Virus record (IMG/VR): IMGVR_UViG_3300030389_002895
Span: 1-56,993 of that record
DNA length: 56,993 nt
Reading direction: 5' to 3' (one strand)
Source of the DNA: a virus
The translations under genes and the position numbers were made by a program. The notes below the pieces were generated by a model. The model saw nothing but the letters and a program-made list of their open reading frames with translations, was not told the origin of the DNA and ran no database searches. Numbering within the stretch: position 1 is the first letter of the stretch; each line of letters begins with the position of its first letter. Of this stretch, positions 4,765 to 56,993 are shown one piece after another.

Positions 4765-5859
4765 TTATGTTTTAGATATACTTCTTGGGTCTTTACCAGG
4801 TCTCATTGCAGCTCTACCAAAACCACTTGCAGAACCACCACCAGACATTCTTAACATACCACCACGTTTCTTGTAGCCCATTTTGTTTCTTACAGCAGTA
4901 GGTAATTTACGTAAGCCTCTACCTTTAGCACCTGCAGGAGGTGTTTTTAAACCCCTTGTAGTTTTATCGGACTGCATTTCATCTATTTTTATAGAACCTC
5001 CTCTTTTTTTCTTAGGAAATACTTTTTTGCCTTTATCACGATACTCTTTAAGATAACCAGCCTCCTCTACTTCATCTTGTCTTCTTTTAATTTTTTTAAA
5101 ACTATCCCCCATTCTTTTTCTTAATTCACCTTTTAATGCTGGTAATTTAATTTTACCCTCATCGAATTTTTTTACTAAATCAGTTGCTTTCTCAGATAAA
5201 AAATCGGCTTTTGGGCCCTTTATTTTACTAAATAAAACATCAAAAGCATCTTTACCTGCTTTTGCACCTGCTTTTGCTATTGCAAATTTACCTTTGACAG
5301 CTTTCGTTACTTTACCACCTTTAACAAAAGCACCTAAAGTGTCGTAAGGAGGAAGATTTAGTTTAAAATCTTTTTTTACTGGTCTTTTAACTTCTTTTTT
5401 AGGACCTTGTGTTCCTTTTGTTCCTAAGTTAAGTCCTGCACCTGCTCTAATTTTATTAGGGTCTTTTAAACCAGGATTTAAAGCCATAAGTTTTGCAACA
5501 GTTGTTCCAGATTTTTTTGCTATACCTGATAAGGTATCACCCTTTTGAATTTTGTATGAACCTTTAGTTCTTGGATATACACCTGTTGCTTTTTTTGTCT
5601 TAGTTATATTTGCACCAAACCTATCTCCAACTTTTGCTGTGCTTTGTTTTTTGGATCTGTAAGGATTACCAGATGTGTCCATACCTGCTGGTGTAGTATT
5701 TCTGTCAAACATAGCTTTTCTTTTAGCTGCCTTTTTTTCTTTTACAGATTTCTGTGTCATTATTTTACCAGTAACAGTATTGGCTCCACCTCTACCTCTA
5801 GTTCCCTCTGGCTTAACACCCTGTGTTTTTAGATATTCTAAAACTTCTTGTATTTTCAT
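4765..5859 (-). CDS. Basic LysM-domain protein
   Basis: A 364-residue, very basic protein. Residues 102-146 form a LysM domain (YKIQKGDTLSGIAKKSGTTV, then LMALNPGLKDPNKI), which in known families binds peptidoglycan. The flanks are low-complexity Lys-rich sequence. The C-terminal third carries KKKRGGSIKI, YKKRGGMLRM and a Gly/Ser/Arg tail. No hydrolase domain is visible, so it would bind rather than cut the wall. It lies near the M15 endolysin in a run of basic proteins. A virion-associated wall-binding factor is the best guess. Confidence 0.65.
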   Translation of the reverse strand: MKIQEVLEYLKTQGVKPEGTRGRGGANTVTGKIMTQKSVKEKKAAKRKAMFDRNTTPAGMDTSGNPYRSKKQSTAKVGDRFGANITKTKKATGVYPRTKGSYKIQKGDTLSGIAKKSGTTVAKLMALNPGLKDPNKIRAGAGLNLGTKGTQGPKKEVKRPVKKDFKLNLPPYDTLGAFVKGGKVTKAVKGKFAIAKAGAKAGKDAFDVLFSKIKGPKADFLSEKATDLVKKFDEGKIKLPALKGELRKRMGDSFKKIKRRQDEVEEAGYLKEYRDKGKKVFPKKKRGGSIKIDEMQSDKTTRGLKTPPAGAKGRGLRKLPTAVRNKMGYKKRGGMLRMSGGGSASGFGRAAMRPGKDPRSISKT

Positions 5860-5868
5860 AGCTTTCTC

Positions 5869-6294
5869 CTAGTTAATATCAATCATACCACCATAGTATT
5901 TCTTTGTAAACGTACTCACGTTTGTTGGTTTACCACCAACTCCTTGAGCTTTAGCTCTTTTTCTTTTAACTGCACTTTTTCTTTGACCTTCGGACATTCT
6001 TCTAGCTTTTGCTAAAGGAACGCATTTAGGATATTTTCTTTTTGCATCTGCTTTTTGTTTACTTCTACCACATGGTGCAAATGAACCATCAGCTCTTTTA
6101 CTACCTATATCAACCCACTTTTGATTAAACCACTCTGTAAGTCCACCCTTTTTTTTCTTTAATGGTTTAACTCCTTGTTTCTTATTATATGCTTTTACTG
6201 CCTTATCAAAATCTTTTTGATTTTTAAATCCTTCAATCCTACCTAACATTGGATGTATAAAAAAAGCTTTTCCTGTTTTTTTATCAACAGGCAT
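5869..6294 (-). CDS. Basic protein with KWVDI...PCGRSK...KYPKC module (DUF5872-like)
   Basis: A 141-residue basic protein. The centre (residues 58-101) reads FNQKWVDIGSKRADGSFAPC followed by GRSKQ, RKYPKCVPLAKA and RRMSEGQ, a module I remember as DUF5872, found in phages and also large eukaryotic DNA viruses. Two conserved Cys could support metal or structural binding. KKKGGL and KKYYGGM motifs flank it. It starts at a TAATG overlap with the upstream gene. Function is unknown in all relatives I recall; the family name is from memory. Confidence 0.6.
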   Translation of the reverse strand: MPVDKKTGKAFFIHPMLGRIEGFKNQKDFDKAVKAYNKKQGVKPLKKKKGGLTEWFNQKWVDIGSKRADGSFAPCGRSKQKADAKRKYPKCVPLAKARRMSEGQRKSAVKRKRAKAQGVGGKPTNVSTFTKKYYGGMIDIN

Positions 6295-8351: not shown

Positions 8352-8652
8352 TATCTGTATCAGCTGTAATCGGTGTTACAAATACTGTAACAGAGGTTAC
8401 GTTACTAATAGTCAAGTGCATATCCGTTTTAAATAGTATACCATCCAAAGGCATATCCACTTGATATTGGTCAGCTGCACTTCCAGCAGGAGTAGCAATT
8501 ACTAATTTTTGTGTACCACTAGCTCCTCCATCTTTAAAAGTTAAAGTGCCAGCTGAAGCATGACCTACATAATAGATAGATAGCAAACGTGTTCTACCAG
8601 ACTGAATAGTACCAGTTGAGGTAAGCGTTTTTGCTCCTATATCTGAATTCAT
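8344..8652 (-). CDS. Small structural protein (beta-rich)
   Basis: A 102-residue protein, Thr/Gly/Ser-rich and beta-predicted (GRTRLLSIYYVGHASAGTLT, residues 19-38; HLTISNVTSVTVFVTPI). Such proteins next to decoration and capsid genes in marine phages are usually virion components. It lies immediately after the putative decoration gene at 8667 and precedes the basic-protein run. It resembles in style the 116-residue protein at 50352, but I cannot claim homology. No catalytic motif. Confidence 0.5.
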   Translation of the reverse strand: MNSDIGAKTLTSTGTIQSGRTRLLSIYYVGHASAGTLTFKDGGASGTQKLVIATPAGSAADQYQVDMPLDGILFKTDMHLTISNVTSVTVFVTPITADTDNG

Positions 8653-19344: not shown

Positions 19345-20820
19345 TCAATAATAGTTGTACTCTTTTGGTGGTCTATCTTCGTTATCGACATAATCAGAAT
19401 ATAGTTCCACAAAATTACCTTGTCTATATCGTAGCATAGCTTGTGTCATACTGTCCACATAGTCATCATTTGCACCATGAGGAAAAGCAGCACATTCATC
19501 TATTACATCATCTGCAAACTTTTCTCCATATGGAAACCATACAGCACCACTTTCAAACATTGGTGATACTGCATTTACTCTTGTAAATTTGTCATTACCT
19601 TTTGCAGGAACGAATGGTACAACAGGTATACCCATTCTTCTAAACTCTTGAGTCAATGGTTCTCCACTAGCTTTTTGTTCTATGATCACAGACTCTGGCT
19701 CCCAGTATCGGTAATGCTCTAACGCAACAGCTTTGAGTTCTGGAAAATCAAACTTGCCACGAAAAGCATCTAACAAAATTACTTGTGGTCCTCCACCCTC
19801 TTCTGGTAAAAAGACACCCCATGTTGTAATCGCACTATAGTCTGCTGTTTCTTTTTTACTAAATGCTGTATCATAACTTTGTATGACATGTACCAAATCA
19901 GGTATGCCATCTCTTTTCCAGGGCATCCACCATTCCCGTTTTATAATCGCACCTTCATCGGAAGTTGGTTCTTGCATGTATTGTGCTGACCAGTTTCTAA
20001 TTGGCACAGAAGACTTGATTGTTTCTAGTTCCTCTAAGTTCCAGTACTCAGGCCAGACTGGGTTGCCAGAAGGCAAAATAGCAGGAAAACTTATCTGGCG
20101 CCAGGAATCGGCTTTCGGTTCTGTTTGAGCCTTGAGTAATCTACCAGTTAAATCATCCTCAGCCCATCGTGTCATTACTAAAAGTATCGAGCCTCCAGGT
20201 TGTAATCTTTGTCTGGGTCCTGATGTGTACCAATCATATGCACGTTCCATAGCAACATCAGACATAGAATCTTGTTCCGTGTGTGGATCATCAATAATCA
20301 ATAAATCTGCACCACGACCCGTGATTGACGCACCAACACCAGCTGCATAATATTCTCCACCTTTGTTTGTTTCCCATCTACCTTTTGCTTTTGAGTCTTC
20401 TCTTAATTTAACATCCCCGAAAATTTGTTTGTACTCTGGTGAGTCTATGATGTTACGCACTTTACTCCCGAACCTTACTGCCAGTTCAGTATTATGAGAC
20501 ACTTGCATAATTTTCATTTTTGGATACTTACCAATAATCCAAGCAGGGAAGTACACGGATGCAAACTCAGACTTAGTATGTCTAGGAGGCATATTTATTA
20601 TGAGCCTCCCTTTTTTTTCTTTAGCTATGTCAGAAAATTCATTAGCTATAATCTGATGGTGTCCAAATTTTTTAGGATTATTAGTCTTACGATATATGAA
20701 ATCAGGCCATACCTCCTTAACAAAATATAAAAAATTGTCTTGGCAAAGCTGGACATGTTTAATCCAGAGCCTCTCTACTTCTAATCTTAATTTATCTGTA
20801 GTTAGATTTGTAGAGTCCAT
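19345..20820 (-). CDS. terL: Terminase large subunit
   Basis: A 491-residue packaging motor. ATPase: Walker A PPRHTKS at 78-84 (preceded by LIINMP), Walker B LLIIDDPH at 173-180 with a C-motif-like MTRWAEDD at 216-223. Nuclease: Asp317 (SYDTAFSKK), conserved acidic residues in IIEQKASGEPL and the C-terminal NDDYVDSMTQA segment. It cuts and translocates DNA through the portal. The start ATG has a 180-base leader with a candidate TTGACA at 20871-20876 but no convincing -10. The small subunit is 3.5 kb away, which is unusual. Confidence 0.95.
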   Translation of the reverse strand: MDSTNLTTDKLRLEVERLWIKHVQLCQDNFLYFVKEVWPDFIYRKTNNPKKFGHHQIIANEFSDIAKEKKGRLIINMPPRHTKSEFASVYFPAWIIGKYPKMKIMQVSHNTELAVRFGSKVRNIIDSPEYKQIFGDVKLREDSKAKGRWETNKGGEYYAAGVGASITGRGADLLIIDDPHTEQDSMSDVAMERAYDWYTSGPRQRLQPGGSILLVMTRWAEDDLTGRLLKAQTEPKADSWRQISFPAILPSGNPVWPEYWNLEELETIKSSVPIRNWSAQYMQEPTSDEGAIIKREWWMPWKRDGIPDLVHVIQSYDTAFSKKETADYSAITTWGVFLPEEGGGPQVILLDAFRGKFDFPELKAVALEHYRYWEPESVIIEQKASGEPLTQEFRRMGIPVVPFVPAKGNDKFTRVNAVSPMFESGAVWFPYGEKFADDVIDECAAFPHGANDDYVDSMTQAMLRYRQGNFVELYSDYVDNEDRPPKEYNYY

Positions 20821-21001: not shown

Positions 21002-21280
21002 CTACCTCATATTACCATTTGTAGAAGTAATAATTTGTAATTCTGCTAATGCTTGATGTACTTGTTCTTTTAAATAATTTGTACTTTCTGCATTAGGATA
21101 ATTTACAAAGGTTTCTATAATTGCTTTTTCTAATGCAGTACAGATAAGCTGATAATTAATTTGCAATTTAGCTTGTTCAATATCCTCTGCATTACTATTT
21201 TGAATTATGTTTTCTCTAATTCTATCAATAGAAGTACCATTCACTAAATTATCTTTTAATAAAGAAATAATATCAGTCAT
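21002..21280 (-). CDS. Unknown helical protein
   Basis: A 92-residue, all-helical protein (MTDIISLLKDNLVNGTSIDR, AKLQINYQLICTALEKAIIE, STNYLKEQVHQALAELQIIT). No known family. Start ATG overlaps the stop of the preceding gene as TAATG, so the two genes at 21.0-21.6 kb form a coupled pair under the 21657-21684 promoter, ended by the terminator at 20954. It may be a dimeric regulator or an accessory factor, but no DNA-binding motif is seen. Confidence 0.6.
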   Translation of the reverse strand: MTDIISLLKDNLVNGTSIDRIRENIIQNSNAEDIEQAKLQINYQLICTALEKAIIETFVNYPNAESTNYLKEQVHQALAELQIITSTNGNMR

Positions 21281-21612
21281 TAGTTTACCTCCTCAATATG
21301 TTGAGTATGTAAAGTAACAACAGGTCTATCCTTAATTAAATATTTTTCGTGTAATTGTGGATAATCTTTTTTAAATGATTTGACATCAAAATCATCTCTA
21401 GTTGTAACAGTCCTTTGAACATATCCTTTCCAACCTTTGATATTCTCTAAATGAATTTCATTAGTTTTAAGGTTATCAAGAATTGATAAAACAATCGCTT
21501 TCTTTTTTGCAAATGACTTATTATATTTTTTTCTCTCTTTATCATCAAGAGCTAAATCAATTACTAATTCGCAAATTGCTTTTCCGTCTAATTTAAGTTT
21601 TTTATCTTTCAA
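21280..21612 (-). CDS. Unknown early protein
   Basis: An approximately 110-residue charged protein (DGKAICELVIDLALDDKERK; GWKGYVQRTVTTRDDFDVKS). I start it at TTG 21612 because the leader GGAGG AAAAA exactly matches the Shine-Dalgarno spacing of sister genes; an ATG at 21624, in frame, would give four more residues (MEEK). A sigma70-type promoter ends 33 bases upstream of that ATG. Family unknown. The following gene is translationally coupled. Confidence 0.6.
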   Translation of the reverse strand: MKDKKLKLDGKAICELVIDLALDDKERKKYNKSFAKKKAIVLSILDNLKTNEIHLENIKGWKGYVQRTVTTRDDFDVKSFKKDYPQLHEKYLIKDRPVVTLHTQHIEEVN

Positions 21613-21656
21613 TTTTTCCTCCATTGGTTTTTGATTAATAATTAAACTTATATATA

Positions 21657-21684
21657 AGTATAAGGATATTATCCGATATAGCAA
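21657..21684 (-). promoter_or_regulatory. Early promoter P1
   Basis: TTGCTA (21679-21684), 16-base spacer opening TATCGG, TATACT (21657-21662), minus strand. Expected start near 21650. It drives the 21280 and 21002 genes. The spacer opening resembles the TATCCG of promoters at 22614, 23229 and 28065. Confidence 0.6.
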
Positions 21685-21828
21685 GGATTATTTTTATTAT
21701 TTTCAAATTTTTTTTTCATCACAAAACTATCCACAGCCTCGAAGACCACCTGGACAAAGTTCGCTGGCGCTTCTTTAATGGGAAGTGGGAAGTGGGATGC
21801 CCAAAACTCTGGTGTGGGAAATGGGAAT

Positions 21829-21916
21829 CCCAGCCCGTGCGATCCGCGGCCAGCTGCGGCCCCTCCTCCGAGCAAAAATGAATCGCAATAATGGGAAGTG
21901 GGAAGTGGGAAGTGGG
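21829..21916. repeat. GC-rich composite element, copy 1 (GGCC hairpin + G-quadruplex tract)
   Basis: A GC-rich island in AT-rich DNA. It begins CCCAGCCCGTGC (21829-21840, also at 22687-22698). It contains a 19-base stretch, CCGTGCGATCCGCGGCCAG (21835-21853), repeated exactly at 23298-23316, and GGCC...GGCC that can form a hairpin. About 31 bases later lie four GGG tracts spaced by AAGT (21893-21916), a perfect intramolecular G-quadruplex pattern on the plus strand. A weaker G-tract set sits at 21780-21825. No gene here; the 21669-22019 minus reading frame is low-quality and rejected. Confidence 0.8.
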
Positions 21917-21927
21917 CTAGGTGAAAA

Positions 21928-21972
21928 AATATAAAAGGGCAAGAGTGCAGACTAAATATAGTCCACACTCTA
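21928..21972 (-). terminator. Terminator of the 21991 gene
   Basis: An interrupted hairpin: AGAGTG..GACT (from 21943) pairs with AGTC..CACTCT (to 21972) around AAATAT. On the minus strand it follows the 21991 stop codon by about 18 bases and runs into a T-rich stretch (CTTTTATATTTTTT). The stem has a two-base mismatch, so strength is uncertain. Confidence 0.6.
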
Positions 21973-21990
21973 TGAAGAAAGATAAGTAGG

Positions 21991-22584
21991 CTAACAAATT
22001 TGAAAGCCTCCAGATTCACGACAGAAACGCATAAAGTTAATTACATTTTCTTCTGAAAATGGATAACTTGCTTCCCAATCATATTGATTTTGTATATCCT
22101 CCCATTGTTGTTTAAATGGTTCTGGATATTTAACAGGTGCTAGTTTTTGTCCTGTCTTATCCCACACAATCTTTTCGAGTTCATTTCTTTTTTTCTCAAG
22201 AACTTTATTTTTTGCACTTGCTCGTTTCATCTTCTCTTGATAAAAACCCTCAACTGTTTTTACTCTTTTTGTTTTTAGTTCTTGCTCAAGTCTATCAGCA
22301 ATTTTTCTAGCTTGTTCTTCGCTTACTTCATAGCCGTCATTGTGATGCCAACTTTTTTGCTCATCTTCTGTGAACTCATTTCCCATTAACTGCAAAACAT
22401 AATTTGCTAATGGTCTCCACCACCATACATTATTTCTAAAGTAATGACCTGGATTTTCTGTCTCAAACTTTGCCCTTGCTTTAAAATATTCGTCTTTTTC
22501 TTTATCGGTTGGTTTTTTATCCCAATCAATACTTGGTTCTTCTCCTTTTAGTTTTGGATTTTGTCCGTATAAATCAAATCCCAT
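21991..22584 (-). CDS. Conserved phage protein (MGFDLYG...YPFS...SGGFQIC)
   Basis: A 197-residue protein starting at ATG 22584, five bases after GGAGG; an in-frame ATG at 22596 overlaps that site. The N-terminus (MGFDLYGQNPK), the YFRNNVWWWRPLANYVLQLM block (residues 48-67) and the C-terminus (YPFSEENVINFMRFCRESGG then FQIC) are features of a phage and bacterial family I recognise but whose function is unknown to me. The middle is a Lys/Glu coiled coil. It forms a single-gene cassette with promoter 22614-22641 and terminator 21928-21972. Confidence 0.7.
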   Translation of the reverse strand: MGFDLYGQNPKLKGEEPSIDWDKKPTDKEKDEYFKARAKFETENPGHYFRNNVWWWRPLANYVLQLMGNEFTEDEQKSWHHNDGYEVSEEQARKIADRLEQELKTKRVKTVEGFYQEKMKRASAKNKVLEKKRNELEKIVWDKTGQKLAPVKYPEPFKQQWEDIQNQYDWEASYPFSEENVINFMRFCRESGGFQIC

Positions 22585-22613
22585 TTTTACCTCCATTGGT
22601 TAGTTAAAATTAA

Positions 22614-22641
22614 ATTATACTATATATAACGGATAATGCAA
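22614..22641 (-). promoter_or_regulatory. Early promoter P2
   Basis: TTGCAT (22636-22641), 16-base spacer opening TATCCG, consensus TATAAT (22614-22619). Expected start near 22607, giving a leader of about 23 bases to the SD-driven ATG at 22584. The core is nearly identical to P3. Confidence 0.75.
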
Positions 22642-22686
22642 ACTATTTTTTCATTCAAATGTAGGACAAACAAGAATGTGATTGAA

Positions 22687-22765
22687 CCCAGCCCGTGCTG
22701 CGGCCCTGGCCAGCCAGCTTCCAAAAAGAAAAAAGTCCCCGTTCTATGATGGGAACGGGAACGGG
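22687..22765. repeat. GC-rich composite element, copy 2
   Basis: It starts with the 12-mer CCCAGCCCGTGC shared with copy 1, then a GGCC-CT-GGCC mini-hairpin (22702-22711), and about 40 bases later three GGG tracts spaced by AAC (22751-22765). Three tracts alone do not make a standard quadruplex. Same orientation as copies 1 and 3. It sits between the end of the 22771 gene and promoter P2. Confidence 0.7.
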
Positions 22766-22768
22766 ATT
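22717..22768 (-). terminator. Terminator after the 22771 gene
   Basis: On the minus strand CCCGTTC pairs with GAACGGG across a loop of about eight bases, followed by GACTTTTTTC and further T. The repeated CCCGTTC units give two alternative pairings for the 5' arm. It overlaps the G-tract part of the GC-rich element, so the repeat may partly serve as a terminator. Confidence 0.65.
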
Positions 22769-22770
22769 TG

Positions 22771-23019
22771 TCAGCTTTGTTGTTTATCTACATCATTTTC
22801 AAGATAACTGTGCATAGCTCCAAGCAAGACCATTGTAGCAAAATTACAAGATGGTGCAGTATTATGTGCAAATTGAGTTATAAAGTATTGAGTACCGAAA
22901 ACAAAATTTGGAGCAGACACATCTTTAGACTTAAGTCTTTTTTTTAACTTCTCCATTTCTTCATTTACTATTTCTAATTGTTTCGGTGTAGATAGCTTTC
23001 TTTTTTTTATTTTACGCAT
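22771..23019 (-). CDS. Unknown small protein
   Basis: An 82-residue protein with a basic N-terminus (RKIKKRKLSTPKQLEIVNEE), a Lys/Glu helix, and a more hydrophobic C-terminal half (NTAPSCNFATMVLLGAMHSY). I start it at ATG 23019, with AAGG nine bases upstream; an ATG at 23025 is only three bases from the site. It overlaps the end of the 23012 gene. The segment SAPNFVFGTQYFITQFAHNT may be a folded core. No family known. It ends next to the terminator at 22717-22768. Confidence 0.55.
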   Translation of the reverse strand: MRKIKKRKLSTPKQLEIVNEEMEKLKKRLKSKDVSAPNFVFGTQYFITQFAHNTAPSCNFATMVLLGAMHSYLENDVDKQQS

Positions 23020-23206
23020 CTTCATCTACCTTCGGGAAATGATCAGGAGCTATTCCAAAGTTGTCGTAATACTTTTGGAGTCCTTCCTTGTCCACGATTT
23101 CGATACCCTCGTTTCCTTTTACTTTAATGTAACCTCTGTCTTCTAGGTCTTTCATTGCTTGTATGAACATAGGGTCCATCAACATTAATTTTGTTAAGTC
23201 GTCCAT
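23012..23206 (-). CDS. Unknown small early protein
   Basis: A 64-residue acidic protein (MDDLTKLMLMDPMFIQAMKD; EDRGYIKVKGNEGIEIVDKE; ends HFPKVDEDA). The ATG at 23206 has the leader GGAGG AAAAA; an in-frame ATG 12 bases upstream lies inside AATGGAGG. The first gene after promoter P3. The EDRGYI and helix-strand pattern could be a winged-helix-like fragment but this is not secure. Confidence 0.6.
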   Translation of the reverse strand: MDDLTKLMLMDPMFIQAMKDLEDRGYIKVKGNEGIEIVDKEGLQKYYDNFGIAPDHFPKVDEDA

Positions 23207-23228
23207 TTTTTCCTCCATTGTTATTTAT

Positions 23229-23256
23229 ATAATACTATATTTAACGGATAAGTCAA
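23229..23256 (-). promoter_or_regulatory. Early promoter P3
   Basis: TTGACT (23251-23256), 16-base spacer opening TATCCG, TATTAT (23229-23234). The expected start near 23222 puts the first in-frame ATG (23218) only about four bases from the RNA end. One of the clearest promoters in the window. Confidence 0.75.
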
Positions 23257-23280
23257 ACCTTTTTTAACACACCTTCTTGT

Positions 23281-23381
23281 TTCCAGCTAGTGCAACTCCG
23301 TGCGATCCGCGGCCAGACGGCTGCTGGCCCATGTCAGGATGCCCTTTCATCAATAAAACGGGAACGGGAACGGGAAGTGGG
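23281..23381. repeat. GC-rich composite element, copy 3
   Basis: It contains the 19-base CCGTGCGATCCGCGGCCAG at 23298-23316, identical to copy 1, within a GGCCAG...CTGGCC hairpin (loop about seven bases). Some 30 bases further on are four GGG tracts (23360-23381; spacers AAC, AAC, AAGT), a full G-quadruplex pattern on the plus strand. It separates the 23385 micropeptide gene from promoter P3. Confidence 0.8.
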
Positions 23382-23384
23382 ACT

Positions 23385-23492
23385 CTAGAAAATTGCCCAT
23401 GCTAGTAAAAGCATGAGCACCAGGGCCACGTACCCTGTCAGCTTAGGAGCAAACAGGGCAGCGATAAAAACAAAAATTAAAAAGCCGACCAT
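23385..23492 (-). CDS. 35-residue hydrophobic membrane peptide
   Basis: ATG at 23492 overlaps the stop of the 23492-23776 gene as TAATG. The 35 residues make two hydrophobic segments (VGFLIFVFIAALFA and YVALVLMLLLAWAIF) with a PKLTG turn, a likely two-helix membrane hairpin. TAG at 23385 lies just before the G-tracts of GC-rich copy 3. Too short for standard gene finders. Holin-like or host-membrane-targeting functions are possible; none is shown. Confidence 0.7.
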   Translation of the reverse strand: MVGFLIFVFIAALFAPKLTGYVALVLMLLLAWAIF

Positions 23493-23776
23493 TAGAACTG
23501 CCTAATGAGTACACGACCCTCAGGTAAATTAGCCACCCACGTCTTGCCCTCTAAATCGTCAAAGGTTTTTATATTATTATAATCTTCTTTGAGCTTGTCG
23601 AATGTCTCATACTCTGCATAGTCACAGCAAAACGAAACTGGATCATACTCAATGTCCGAGTCCATCTCCTCCTCCCACTCGAAGATTTGCTCCCAAGCCT
23701 CATAGCTAAACTGCTTCCAGCGTGAGTGCTGCCGCACCTGCTCCAAAAAATTTTGTTTGTTTAAAGTTATTTTCAT
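23492..23776 (-). CDS. Conserved small acidic phage protein
   Basis: A 94-residue protein (FSYEAWEQIFEWEEEMDSDI, residues 23-42; then EYDPVSFCCDYAEYETFDKL). The hydrophobic-acidic pattern with FCCDYAEYE is one I recall in small phage proteins of unknown function across many hosts. ATG at 23776 after GGAG; another in-frame ATG lies 12 bases earlier. It is driven by promoter P4 and coupled with the 35-residue membrane peptide. It could be an inhibitor of a host protein, but this is inference only. Confidence 0.65.
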   Translation of the reverse strand: MKITLNKQNFLEQVRQHSRWKQFSYEAWEQIFEWEEEMDSDIEYDPVSFCCDYAEYETFDKLKEDYNNIKTFDDLEGKTWVANLPEGRVLIRQF

Positions 23777-23801
23777 AATTCTCTCCATTGGTTATCCTTT
23801 A

Positions 23802-23830
23802 TATATATACAGGATTTTACAGGAAGTCAA
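23802..23830 (-). promoter_or_regulatory. Early promoter P4
   Basis: TTGACT (23825-23830), 17-base spacer opening TCCTGTAAAATCCTG, TATATA (23802-23807). Expected start near 23795. The spacer TCCTGTAAAATC also occurs after TTGACT at 25139 on the plus strand. Confidence 0.65.
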
Positions 23831-23980
23831 GCCCTGAAAAAAAATGCTGCCAGATCCACGCCTGGGAAGAAAACCCCAGAAACACGGCTTTTGAGCCAGC
23901 GACCATGCGCGCAGCCGGCGGGGACGCATCCTAGCTGGAATCCAGGAAATTAGGTAGTTTGTGGATGACAACGGGCACGG

Positions 23981-24093
23981 GGATTTGCAGCGCAGCCAGC
24001 CCAGGATCATGCAGCACGGGCCTGTAGCCAGATTATAATCTCCTCAACGGGGGTGGGCATTTGGTTGGTGGGAACGGGAACGGGAACTCCGGG
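23981..24093. repeat. GC-rich composite element, copy 4 (divergent)
   Basis: Vocabulary of the other copies (CCAGCCCAGG, GCAGCACGGGCC) is followed, about 45 bases later, by four GGG tracts (24070-24093; spacers AAC, AAC, AACTCC). The element overlaps the 3' end of the nuclease gene at 24007, where its minus strand encodes VPVPVP. The stretch 23838-23980 is also GC-rich and holds no gene that I accept. Confidence 0.6.
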
Positions 24094-24414
24094 CTCACGA
24101 ATCTCGTATAGTTTGGCAGGTACGTGAAAGAGGGGCCAGTTCAAGATGTATGCAGCTCCACCAGCTTCTCTGTAGTTAAGATGCCAAGAGATTTGATATT
24201 TTGATATGTTCAAATTCTTAGCTTGATTAGCTTTCAACTCTAGCCAAAAAGATACACCTACATAACAACAATGAACATCAGGGATTCCGTTGATTGTAGA
24301 GCTTTCTATTTTAGTAAAATGTGCCTCAGATTTATCTTTTTGATACAGGTTAAGGTAATTCCAAATTTTTTTTTCAGTTAACCTTTTTAATTTTCTTTTT
24401 TTCTGGTGTGACAT
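24007..24414 (-). CDS. VRR-NUC-like endonuclease
   Basis: A 135-residue PD-(D/E)XK nuclease. Signature: GIPDVHCCYVGVSFWLELKA (residues 44-63), giving Asp47 and the Glu-x-Lys (ELK) of the active site, then NISKYQISWHLNYREAGGAA with the conserved Gln. VRR-NUC enzymes act on DNA junctions or flaps. The gene overlaps the small-terminase gene by 41 bases. Its last 30 codons run through GC-rich copy 4, producing a Pro/Val-rich tail (REPGVPVPVPTNQMPTP) unlike the core, a likely appended sequence. Confidence 0.8.
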   Translation of the reverse strand: MSHQKKRKLKRLTEKKIWNYLNLYQKDKSEAHFTKIESSTINGIPDVHCCYVGVSFWLELKANQAKNLNISKYQISWHLNYREAGGAAYILNWPLFHVPAKLYEIREPGVPVPVPTNQMPTPVEEIIIWLQARAA

Positions 24415-24895
24415 CTATAATAGTACTCCCATCATCTATCTTTTTTTCTAATTCTTTTAATCTTTTTTCTAATTGTTCTCTACTCATACCTTCAAGAGTA
24501 CTATGTAAAACTTCTTTTTTTTCTACAAATTGTCCAGCTAATTGACCTGAACGAAACTCTGCTGCTATCGCACCTGTATACTGTCCTTTTGCTTCAGCAC
24601 CATCACGTAATCTTTCAAAAGTTTTATATCTTCTTAATTTATCTTTTTCATATTTTTCTTGTTCCTTACCAAGTTTGTGTTCAAGGTACCTACATACATG
24701 TGGGTTGTAATTTGGATTTGTAAGTTTACTAGCCATAACCATTGCAGCGTCTTTTGTTTTAGTTTTGTAACCAGCTTGTAACAACGCATCAGTTTTTGAT
24801 ATTTGTCCCCACTGGCTAACTAATATATCAATAAACTTTTTTTGCTTAACTGTTAAATCTTCAATTGTTCTTACTTGTTTACTTCGTTGTGGCAT
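24374..24895 (-). CDS. terS: Terminase small subunit
   Basis: A 173-residue protein of the Terminase_2 type. LTVKQKKFIDILVSQWGQIS (residues 14-33) and KTDALLQAGYKTKTKDAAMV (34-53) form the helix-turn-helix domain that recognises packaging-start DNA. The middle is a helical oligomerisation region, and the C-terminus (LEGMSREQLEKRLKELEKKI) a coiled coil with a basic tail that should contact the large subunit. It has its own promoter and a 200-base leader, and is 3.5 kb from terL. Confidence 0.85.
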   Translation of the reverse strand: MPQRSKQVRTIEDLTVKQKKFIDILVSQWGQISKTDALLQAGYKTKTKDAAMVMASKLTNPNYNPHVCRYLEHKLGKEQEKYEKDKLRRYKTFERLRDGAEAKGQYTGAIAAEFRSGQLAGQFVEKKEVLHSTLEGMSREQLEKRLKELEKKIDDGSTIIDVTPEKKKIKKVN

Positions 24896-24925: not shown

Positions 24926-25036
24926 TTATTTTTTTCTGCAAAACAGTCCTCTCTTTTCCCAAAAAACAGGAAAAATTCCCAAAACTTTCCCAAAACTATT
25001 TCTCTGTAATACTATGTTTTCTCTTGTTTTTTCCAT
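24926..25036 (-). CDS. Possible 36-residue leader ORF upstream of terS
   Basis: An ATG-to-TAA frame in the terS leader encodes 36 residues (MEKTRENIVLQRNSFGKVLG, then IFPVFWEKRG). It spans part of a set of four TTCCCAAAA(A/C) repeats (plus strand, near 24957, 24977, 24988 and 25039). No proper ribosome site (GGGAAA too close). It may be a short gene or just the repeats read by chance; low confidence. Confidence 0.25.
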   Translation of the reverse strand: MEKTRENIVLQRNSFGKVLGIFPVFWEKRGLFCRKK

Positions 25037-25103
25037 TTTCCCAAAACTTTTGCCTATTTTACACTTATGTTTTTAAAAAAAAGTTTGTATAGACATATAT
25101 AGT

Positions 25104-25205: not shown

Positions 25206-25260
25206 GTGGGTATCTAATCTTACTCTTTTTTAACATACTGAATATAGTTCAGGTACCCAC
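25206..25260 (-). ncRNA. Candidate structured RNA element A
   Basis: Minus strand: GTGGGTA (25254-25260) pairs with TACCCAC (25206-25212), enclosing a perfect CTGAA-CTATA-TTCAG hairpin. It starts three bases after the 25263 stop and is followed by CCAATGGAGG, the leader used by early genes, yet no gene of more than 11 codons follows. It resembles element B at 27902-27948 in the outer stem. It may be a degenerate cassette leader or a regulatory RNA. Confidence 0.4.
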
Positions 25261-25262
25261 CA

Positions 25263-25757
25263 TTAACTAACAATCACAGACACCAAAGCAACAGTAACAT
25301 AACAGTTACTTCCAAGAACAGCTTCTTTTCTACTTAATTTTAATTGTTTTTTCAAAGAACTTTTTTGAGAAACACTACAAGCTTTTTGCCATTTTTTTAA
25401 AAGTAAACTATATTTTTTCCATTTTACCTGACTTTGTTTAAAACGTATTTTATTTTTAAGTATAGCTTTTTTGTAAGCAGCTCTTACATCATCAGGATCT
25501 AACATAGCCCAATTACAAACCTGGTCAAAATCAGAACAAGCACTCATAATCCAGTTATGTGCAGCTCCTTTTAATACAGCAGACTTTCTGTCAACTCTTT
25601 CTATCATAGTATCTTCCAGGGCATTTATAACTACACCTCTCCACATATAATTTTCAGGCATCATATTATCGTGAGACAATAACATTCTTGAAAATCTATA
25701 TCCTAGTTTTTTTAAAAATTCTGTTGAGGGAGGTTGAAATTGTTGTTTAGTCGCCAT
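25263..25757 (-). CDS. Conserved phage protein of unknown function
   Basis: A 164-residue helical protein. MWRGVVINALEDTMIERVDR and KSAVLKGAAHNWIMSACSDF (about residues 38-77) plus DQVCNWAMLDPDDVRAAYKK form a block I recognise from other marine phages as a conserved unknown. The C-terminal 25 residues turn hydrophobic (GSNCYVTVALVSVIVS), unlike the rest, possibly a weak membrane tail or a changed end. Start ATG 25757 overlaps the previous gene's end by 11 bases. Confidence 0.65.
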   Translation of the reverse strand: MATKQQFQPPSTEFLKKLGYRFSRMLLSHDNMMPENYMWRGVVINALEDTMIERVDRKSAVLKGAAHNWIMSACSDFDQVCNWAMLDPDDVRAAYKKAILKNKIRFKQSQVKWKKYSLLLKKWQKACSVSQKSSLKKQLKLSRKEAVLGSNCYVTVALVSVIVS

Positions 25758-56120: not shown

Positions 56121-56930
56121 TTAACTCCCTGCTCCGTTGGTAGGGCTATCAATAACTTGATAATGTGTTCCCATACCTGTTGTAAAGTCATTACCATTTC
56201 CTGAACTGTCATTACCTAAATCGCTTGCATTTTCAAATTTAAGATGAAAACCATTATTACCAAATGTAGTACCACTTGGGTCTTTTGGAATCCACACACC
56301 ATTTTTAGTTTCACCAAATTGAGTAGGTGCGTAAGCTTGTCCATCTGCGAAGATAGCTTCAGCTTGATAGCCATTAAAATTATATACTCCGTAATAAGCT
56401 TCTGTCCCTAAAACATATTGTGTAGCACCACTTGTGTTAAATTTAAAATCTTCATTTTGTGGGTAATGACCACTACTAACAGTGCCAGACATATCTATTT
56501 GACTACCATTAACATAAACTTTTACTCTATCACCTGAACTTGATTGTGCTGAATCAAAAACCACTACTATATGATAGAAACTAGATGTATCTCTAAATTG
56601 AGCTGTACTTTTATGACCATAACTTGTGCCACCTCTTTGTCCTTGTAATGTAATTTTATCATCACCATCAAAATGAAGCATATCAAATTGAGTATTACCA
56701 GTTCCTCCATAAAACCAAGCATTGAAATCACCGCCAGTAGATACTTCACTTCTTTTCACCCAAGCACTTAAAGTGCCTTTATCAACATTTGAAGGTGTTC
56801 CAACACTTGTTTTTTTAAGAGTATAATTGTCTCCAGAAGTGCCATCGCCTCTTACCGACTGATTGATTTGATATTCATAGAAGCCACTAGCTCCACCTGG
56901 ATTTTGAAAAAACTCACCTTGTACTGGCAT
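56121..56930 (-). CDS. LamG-like (concanavalin-fold) tail protein
   Basis: A 269-residue protein with a LamG-like beta sandwich: KGTLSAWVKRSEVSTGGDFN, YHIVVVFDSAQSSSGDRVKV, YVNGSQID and HLKFENASDLGNDSSGNGND. Such domains bind sugars or proteins in adhesins. It ends TGMGTHYQVIDSPTNGAGS, where related proteins in other phages continue straight into an SPRY-like part, here supplied by the next gene. ATG 56930 has a GGAGA ribosome site, inside the terminal repeat. Confidence 0.7.
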   Translation of the reverse strand: MPVQGEFFQNPGGASGFYEYQINQSVRGDGTSGDNYTLKKTSVGTPSNVDKGTLSAWVKRSEVSTGGDFNAWFYGGTGNTQFDMLHFDGDDKITLQGQRGGTSYGHKSTAQFRDTSSFYHIVVVFDSAQSSSGDRVKVYVNGSQIDMSGTVSSGHYPQNEDFKFNTSGATQYVLGTEAYYGVYNFNGYQAEAIFADGQAYAPTQFGETKNGVWIPKDPSGTTFGNNGFHLKFENASDLGNDSSGNGNDFTTGMGTHYQVIDSPTNGAGS

Positions 56931-56993
56931 TACTTATGTCTCCTATGCAAATGCAAGTTGTGGTGCTCCTAGTTGAATACTTGCAGAAGCCTT
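56893..56993. repeat. Terminal direct repeat, right copy
   Basis: Copy of bases 1-101 with one difference (a at 56895, g at 3). It includes the first codons of the LamG-like gene and the end of the tail-fibre gene. Joining the two ends removes 101 duplicate bases and gives continuous genes. See the left copy. Confidence 0.93.

Follow-up and report, generated by a model that had tools for sequence, protein, structure and literature searches.

The interval between terS and terL of this virus genome raises the question of what element recurs there, in a single orientation, at a series of small gene cassettes. The window, that is, the whole stretch of DNA analyzed, is a 57-kb virus record with a GC content of 34.6%, in which about 98 bases at the start recur at the end, as in a circular assembly. 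An earlier note on this DNA described four islands of high G+C content as copies of a composite element, a GGCC hairpin followed by G-tracts, and proposed a repeated functional module. The islands are real, with 80-bp windows reaching 67.5% GC against a maximum of 56% in ten first-order Markov copies, and they do sit in the terS-terL interval, both landmark genes having been located on the minus strand. The notion of a repeated module beyond chance, in one orientation and at small-gene cassettes, holds as well, many relatives carrying the arrays described below. The hairpin and G-tract design is not the conserved unit, the GC blocks folding no better than dinucleotide shuffles.

Array unit and cassette organization in the window

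Because the genes run on the minus strand, the natural reading of the islands is a coding-strand CCCGTTCCCGTT that follows a gene end. The constant part on this strand is a tandem array, (CCCGTT)2-4, located in the spacers from the nuclease-like gene to terL and in gene orientation, and the island layout comprises (i) a CCCGTTCCCGTT(CCC) array, (ii) a GC block, and (iii) the next promoter-like site with its gene. The window contains five arrays, one of which falls within the nuclease-like gene, with the variant CCCACTT in the last spacer (Table 1). The list of four copies had overlooked the fifth array, at 21779-21797, and its copy 4 proves to be part of a longer island (23846-24165), with the G-tract inside gene 24007-24414. 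Among the relatives, the start of an array lies 1-10 nt past an ORF stop in 36 of 114 cases, compared with 7% of random positions.

The exact repeats reported between the copies are present. The 12-mer CCCAGCCCGTGC is common to copies 1 and 2, and the 19-mer pair occupies positions 21835-21853 and 23298-23316, exact in copies 1 and 3, with copies 2 and 4 lacking its core. This pair is due to a second motif, GATCGCACGGG, which recurs 3' of the arrays at several CCCGTT-group spacers in a single orientation. Most matches of GATCGCACGGG in viral contigs are loci already in the family, and a host or mobile origin was rejected, since a scan of genome contigs gave 20 scattered unrelated genomes, read as chance. 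No conserved RNA structure was detected in 98 GC blocks from the window and its relatives (mean z -0.09, s.e.m. 0.12), and no Rfam family exceeded its own threshold within the region.

The gene that opens the cassette interval is termed nuclease-like from its PHROG matches; it may be of the VRR-NUC type, as judged by motif reading only, and a Pfam scan of it returned no match. Families of 34-35 aa ORFs occupy the same place in relatives as the 35-aa ORF of the window.

Table 1. Features of the cassette interval and its landmarks in the window (positions from the first letter of the window).
Feature	Position	Strand	Remarks
terS (landmark)	24374..24895	-
Nuclease-like gene, head of cassette interval	24007..24414	-	PHROG 2165 and 93
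Array (GTTCCC)3	24070..24087	-	within 3' part of nuclease-like gene; codes VPVPVP
Cassette gene, 98 aa, function not known	23492..23788	-	PHROG 9974
Hydrophobic 35-aa ORF	23385..23492	-	sequence reading; overlaps end of 98-aa gene, stops 3 nt before array
Array CCCACTTCCCGTTCCCGTTCCCGTT	23357..23382	-	3 nt past stop codon of 35-aa ORF
Second motif GATCGCACGGA	23297..23307	-	within 19-mer of copy 3
Promoter-like TTGACT..TATTAT	23229..23256	-	upstream of gene 23012-23218; consensus match only
Cassette gene, 68 aa	23012..23218	-	weak Crp-like HTH match below cut-off
Cassette gene, 84 aa, no assigned function	22771..23025	-
Array CCCGTTCCCGTTCCC	22751..22766	-	5 nt past stop codon of gene 22771-23025; terminator 5' arm
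Intrinsic terminator hairpin, then TTTTTT (predicted)	22735..22762	-	conserved, with matched changes of both arms in CTCGTT relatives
Promoter-like TTTGCA..TATAAT	22614..22642	-	upstream of gene 21991-22596; consensus match only
Cassette gene, about 200 aa	21991..22596	-	family-conserved
Array CCCACTT x3.6	21892..21916	-	spacer after gene 21991-22596
Second motif GATCGCACGGG	21834..21844	-	within 19-mer of copy 1
Array CCCACTT x2.7	21779..21797	-	second in spacer after gene 21991-22596
Promoter-like TTGCTA..TATACT	21657..21684	-	upstream of gene 21280-21624; consensus match only
Cassette gene, 114 aa	21280..21624	-
terL (landmark)	19345..20820	-

Array words across the relatives

The relatives comprise 48 viral loci fetched by TerS; in phage records, the closest terL genes belong to HTVC023P and HTVC027P, two isolates obtained on Pelagibacter HTCC1062. 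Over whole records of up to 58 kb, CCCGTT pairs are confined to the interval from the nuclease gene to terL in one orientation, the reversed control giving zero; a single opposite-strand CCCGTT site (G002) forms the 3' arm of a terminator. Searched without bias for exact tandem 6- and 7-mers that recur at two or more sites, most array-bearing records give the arrays as the top result, with the words CCCGTT, CCCGTTT, CTCGTT, CCATAA, and, in HTVC027P, AAGCTTC. At the same spacers, HTVC023P-type relatives carry CTCGTT, CCCGTTT, CCATAA, or AATCTCTACCG, with CAAGCTT in the isolate HTVC027P; longer or composite forms include (i) an 11-mer containing TCTCTACC in L042, (ii) a 33-mer in HTVC023P, and (iii) the pattern GAGC/GGGCCCACCC in 023Pt_psg01. 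Each genome displays one predominant word, as in L011 with eight CCCGTT sites, L024 with four CTCGTT sites, and L050 with five CCATAA sites, the other words being absent from each, and the opposite strand is free of words except for terminator 3' arms. Words are mixed in L023, L028, and L031, and the window itself holds two. Across the main words, TerL identity to that of the window is 83-91%. Matches of CCCGTTCCCGTTCCCGTT in viral contigs beyond the array-bearing family fall mostly in GC-richer contigs.

In each lineage the array comes after one and the same conserved segment of the nuclease, in a frame that differs and produces VPVP, SRSR, FPFP, or HNHN tails. Since the reading frames vary inside the gene, it is a DNA or RNA word that is kept, and a protein motif is ruled out. 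Pairing as an anti-Shine-Dalgarno element (CCGTT against AACGGAG) was also considered and does not hold in the CCATAA and TCTCTACC lineages.

Terminators, mosaic cassettes and the competing explanations

At one spacer, which in the window precedes gene 21991-22596, the array supplies the 5' arm of a strong predicted intrinsic terminator in 13 of the 15 CCCGTT loci with a suitable spacer, with energies of -14.9 to -19.9 kcal/mol, L013 and L047 being the exceptions by the criterion used. L024, L026, L028, and L031 have one array-terminator spacer each (-19.3 to -22.2 kcal/mol), and the CTCGTT word is accompanied by a 3' arm AACGAG, two pairs passing from C-G to U-A; the L024 and L026 rows are related, and the independent events are few. 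The combination expected of an intrinsic terminator, a GC-rich stem with a T run and two-sided stem changes, is found at one spacer only. Over all arrays, a strong terminator is present at 38 of 124, compared with 15% in shuffles, which indicates that termination is not the sole role.

The arrays follow the cassettes. L033, L045, and their kin possess terS, the nuclease gene, and terL, and lack arrays; the full reading of the L033 interval gives the nuclease, then one gene, then terL. In these relatives TerL is 83-85% and TerS 64-67% identical to the proteins of the window, and the cassette region is missing. Since arrays are missing where cassettes are missing, they appear tied to the cassettes, which argues against a packaging role. 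In L024, L026, and L028 the arrays remain in the interval from nuclease to terL, with terS 3.4-4.2 kb off. The cassettes themselves are mosaic, identities of neighboring cassettes within one genome pair extending from 61 to 95%, with 92, 75, and 71% in L020/L052, one gene at 95% beside 70-75% in L013/L020, and 94% beside 68-73% in L052/L048. Several high-identity blocks terminate in an array and some restart near the next promoter, a pattern that, as read from the sequences, fits cassette exchange at the spacers, to which fast spacer evolution would also contribute.

Each module runs from promoter through gene and stop to array, and a GC-rich block, often containing GATCGCACGGG, separates the array from the promoter that follows, the genes being single or paired. 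The demonstrated features, namely the arrays with their single orientation and place, a predominant word per genome that differs by lineage, the array terminator of one spacer, and the mosaic cassettes, are gathered by an explanation to which we give an even chance, in which the arrays are a cassette-end module of HTVC023P-type phages, acting as terminator and recombination linker and kept uniform by recombination. The module would end or insulate early transcripts ahead of terL and the late genes; identical sequence across the spacers would offer a homologous joint for cassette exchange; and the same recombination may copy one word to all spacers, so that a lineage switches its word at every site together. 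Among the roles proposed in the earlier note, a recombination or structural element is the best fit, and a packaging site is disfavored. Against the cassette-end module stand (i) the 86 of 124 arrays without a strong terminator, (ii) the arrays of L042, which lie after the terminator, (iii) the mixed words of L023, L028, L031, and the window, and (iv) the breakpoints at arrays in several pairs, from which we infer recombination and which may reflect fast spacer evolution.

The main rival, a tentative alternative, proposes that a fast-evolving phage protein binds the arrays as iterated sites and, in the manner of stoperators, halts or represses early transcription, the word following the specificity of the protein. 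The single orientation with transcription, the location in spacers, and a lineage word at many sites reproduce the stoperator pattern (PMC9283540, PMC6550527), and two arrays of HTVC027P abut the next -35 box; however, the proteins scanned gave weak HTH matches only and no candidate, the words of close relatives (CCCGTT, CCATAA, TCTCTACC) are too unlike for the small steps of one protein, and the arrays occupy one interval, whereas stoperators are genome-wide. Present data fit both a recombination-kept and a protein-kept word. By analogy with immunity types, a phage-encoded protein could recognize the arrays as an "address word" and so halt or sort early transcription, with co-evolution of word and protein, a reading that we consider doubtful; if true, sister marine SAR11-type phages switch the word at all cassettes jointly, tandem arrays replacing single sites.

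Near-neutral or selfish short tandem repeats, spreading among spacers with no phage function, would account for the copy number that differs between relatives L002 and L004, and heptamer direct repeats with no assigned role are known in bacteria (PMC4679880), but the strict orientation, the gene-end position, the matched change of both terminator arms, and the retention of GC-rich words by an AT-rich genome make this improbable. The terS-terL location and the iteron-like tandem words would suit packaging (TerS) or replication initiation sites, a proposal rendered very improbable by the many copies across more than 2 kb, by arrays that travel with cassettes and not with terS in L024, L026, and L028, and by the relatives with similar TerS and TerL and no arrays: a cos or pac site should be present with its cognate terminase, and the arrays are absent from L033, L045, and kin with TerL 83-85% identical. 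All eight GGG-N1-7-GGG-N1-7-GGG strings of the 57-kb record lie on the plus strand within 21.7-24.2 kb, with none on the minus strand. A G-quadruplex in the template strand would suit three arrays of the window, which hold four G-runs, yet the expected four runs of three or more with short loops occur in just 10 of 114 arrays, and CTCGTT, CCATAA, and CAAGCTT cannot form a G-quadruplex. Rho-utilization sites in the RNA would agree with arrays that are C-rich in RNA, but C minus G averages only 0.02 per nt over 78 nt, where C well in excess of G over about 80 nt is expected, and we hold either of these two proposals to be scarcely credible.

Significance and comparison with known systems

SAR11 phages rank with the most abundant viruses, and little is known of how they acquire and control small early genes. 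The concerted change of word between sister lineages makes it possible to ask whether recombination or a binding protein maintains the likeness of the copies, and whether gene exchange is driven by such joints; HTVC027P, an isolate whose word is CAAGCTT, brings the question within reach of culture tests. Literature searches, in which coverage of subscription journals was sparse, returned no description of these arrays, and the terms "intergenic", "terminator", and "promoter" are absent from the main text of the main genome paper on HTVC023P-type phages (PMC9599517).

Stoperators of cluster A mycobacteriophages are asymmetric sites that lie in short intergenic spaces, follow the direction of transcription, have a lineage-specific consensus, occur as 20-30 single sites genome-wide, and are bound by the phage immunity repressor (PMC9283540, PMC6550527). 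The arrays resemble them in orientation with transcription, short intergenic location, and lineage-specific word, but are tandem, restricted to one interval, and display far larger word differences between relatives; no repressor was recognized among the proteins scanned. In Beggiatoaceae and cyanobacteria, the TAACTGA heptamer direct repeats sit immediately 5' of start codons, with one word across distant bacteria (PMC4679880); they share with the arrays the short tandem direct repeats, intergenic, with few copies per set, whereas the arrays follow gene ends and differ in word from lineage to lineage. In phage-borne attC/CALIN gene-cassette arrays, each of several consecutive small genes precedes a one-orientation site (PMC9892861), and the arrays are likewise one-orientation sites after successive small genes. 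An integron attC identity is rejected, the RYYYAAC ... GTTRRRY core pair being found in 0 of 112 arrays (1.7% of random windows), and the window record contains no tyrosine recombinase.

The PeSLs (promoter early stem-loops) of T4-type phages, reportedly described by Arbiol et al. in 2010, are said to be repeated intergenic modules with a stem-loop or terminator, linked to cassette shuffling, that lie among variable small early genes, are alike within a genome and differ between phages, and hold the promoter inside the repeat. The work of Arbiol et al. is cited in PMC4177764. The arrays likewise recur as an intergenic module among variable early genes and resemble one another within a genome. 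In contrast to PeSLs, each is a tandem 6-11-mer after the gene that may run into an ORF, the promoter-like sites, as read from the sequence, lie outside it, after the GC block, a difference that weighs against a PeSL-like module, and a stem-loop is not found in every copy, given the 38 of 124 with a strong terminator. On the best reading, by analogy, the arrays would function like PeSLs, an iterated short word taking the role of the one stem-loop, while departing from the PeSL design.

Direct repeats near terS

The TTTTGGGAA direct repeats, with a period of about 11 bp, are kept immediately upstream of terS across relatives, including those devoid of the short tandem arrays found in the spacers between small cassette genes, and represent a better candidate for a terS-linked site than the arrays themselves. 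In the related viral locus L028, a TTTTAGGA version of the terS-upstream repeat sits upstream of the nuclease gene instead. Also upstream of terS, a SAM-V riboswitch match in the window (25220-25267, minus strand) scores 29.6 bits, below the cut-off of 41.

Coordinates of repeats, arrays and the short ORF (L-numbers, viral loci of relatives)
Feature	Sequence	Positions	Strand	Location
TTTTGGGAA direct repeats	window	24971-25060		directly upstream of terS
TTTTGGGAA direct repeats	L033	3699-3730		
TTTTGGGAA direct repeats	L036	2469-2500		
TTTTGGGAA direct repeats	L045	7496-7578		
Hydrophobic ORF, 35 aa	window	23385-23492	minus	
CAAGCTT array	HTVC027P (L174)	5831-5867		
CAAGCTT array	HTVC027P (L174)	6154-6174		

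Repeated words in the CCATAA lineage

Relatives whose array word is CCATAA carry several copies of TGTCAGCAAATA near gene starts, as in L049 (10537, 11335, 12914 and 12938), the word occurring also in L050 and L053; it is possibly the operator of a phage regulator. L050 additionally displays five GGTCTTGCCCTG copies (8441-8485) spaced by 11 bp, about one helical turn.

Genome ends, a short ORF and the arrays of HTVC027P

The window ends in a direct repeat of about 98 bp (4-101 and 56896-56993), consistent with a complete genome and a circular assembly. The 35-aa ORF is absent from the window's ORF list because of its 60-aa limit; relatives encode ORFs of 34-35 aa in the matching position, with the array beginning 2-3 nt after each. 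In HTVC027P, an isolate on Pelagibacter HTCC1062, two CAAGCTT arrays are directly continued by the -35 box of the next promoter, TTGACA.
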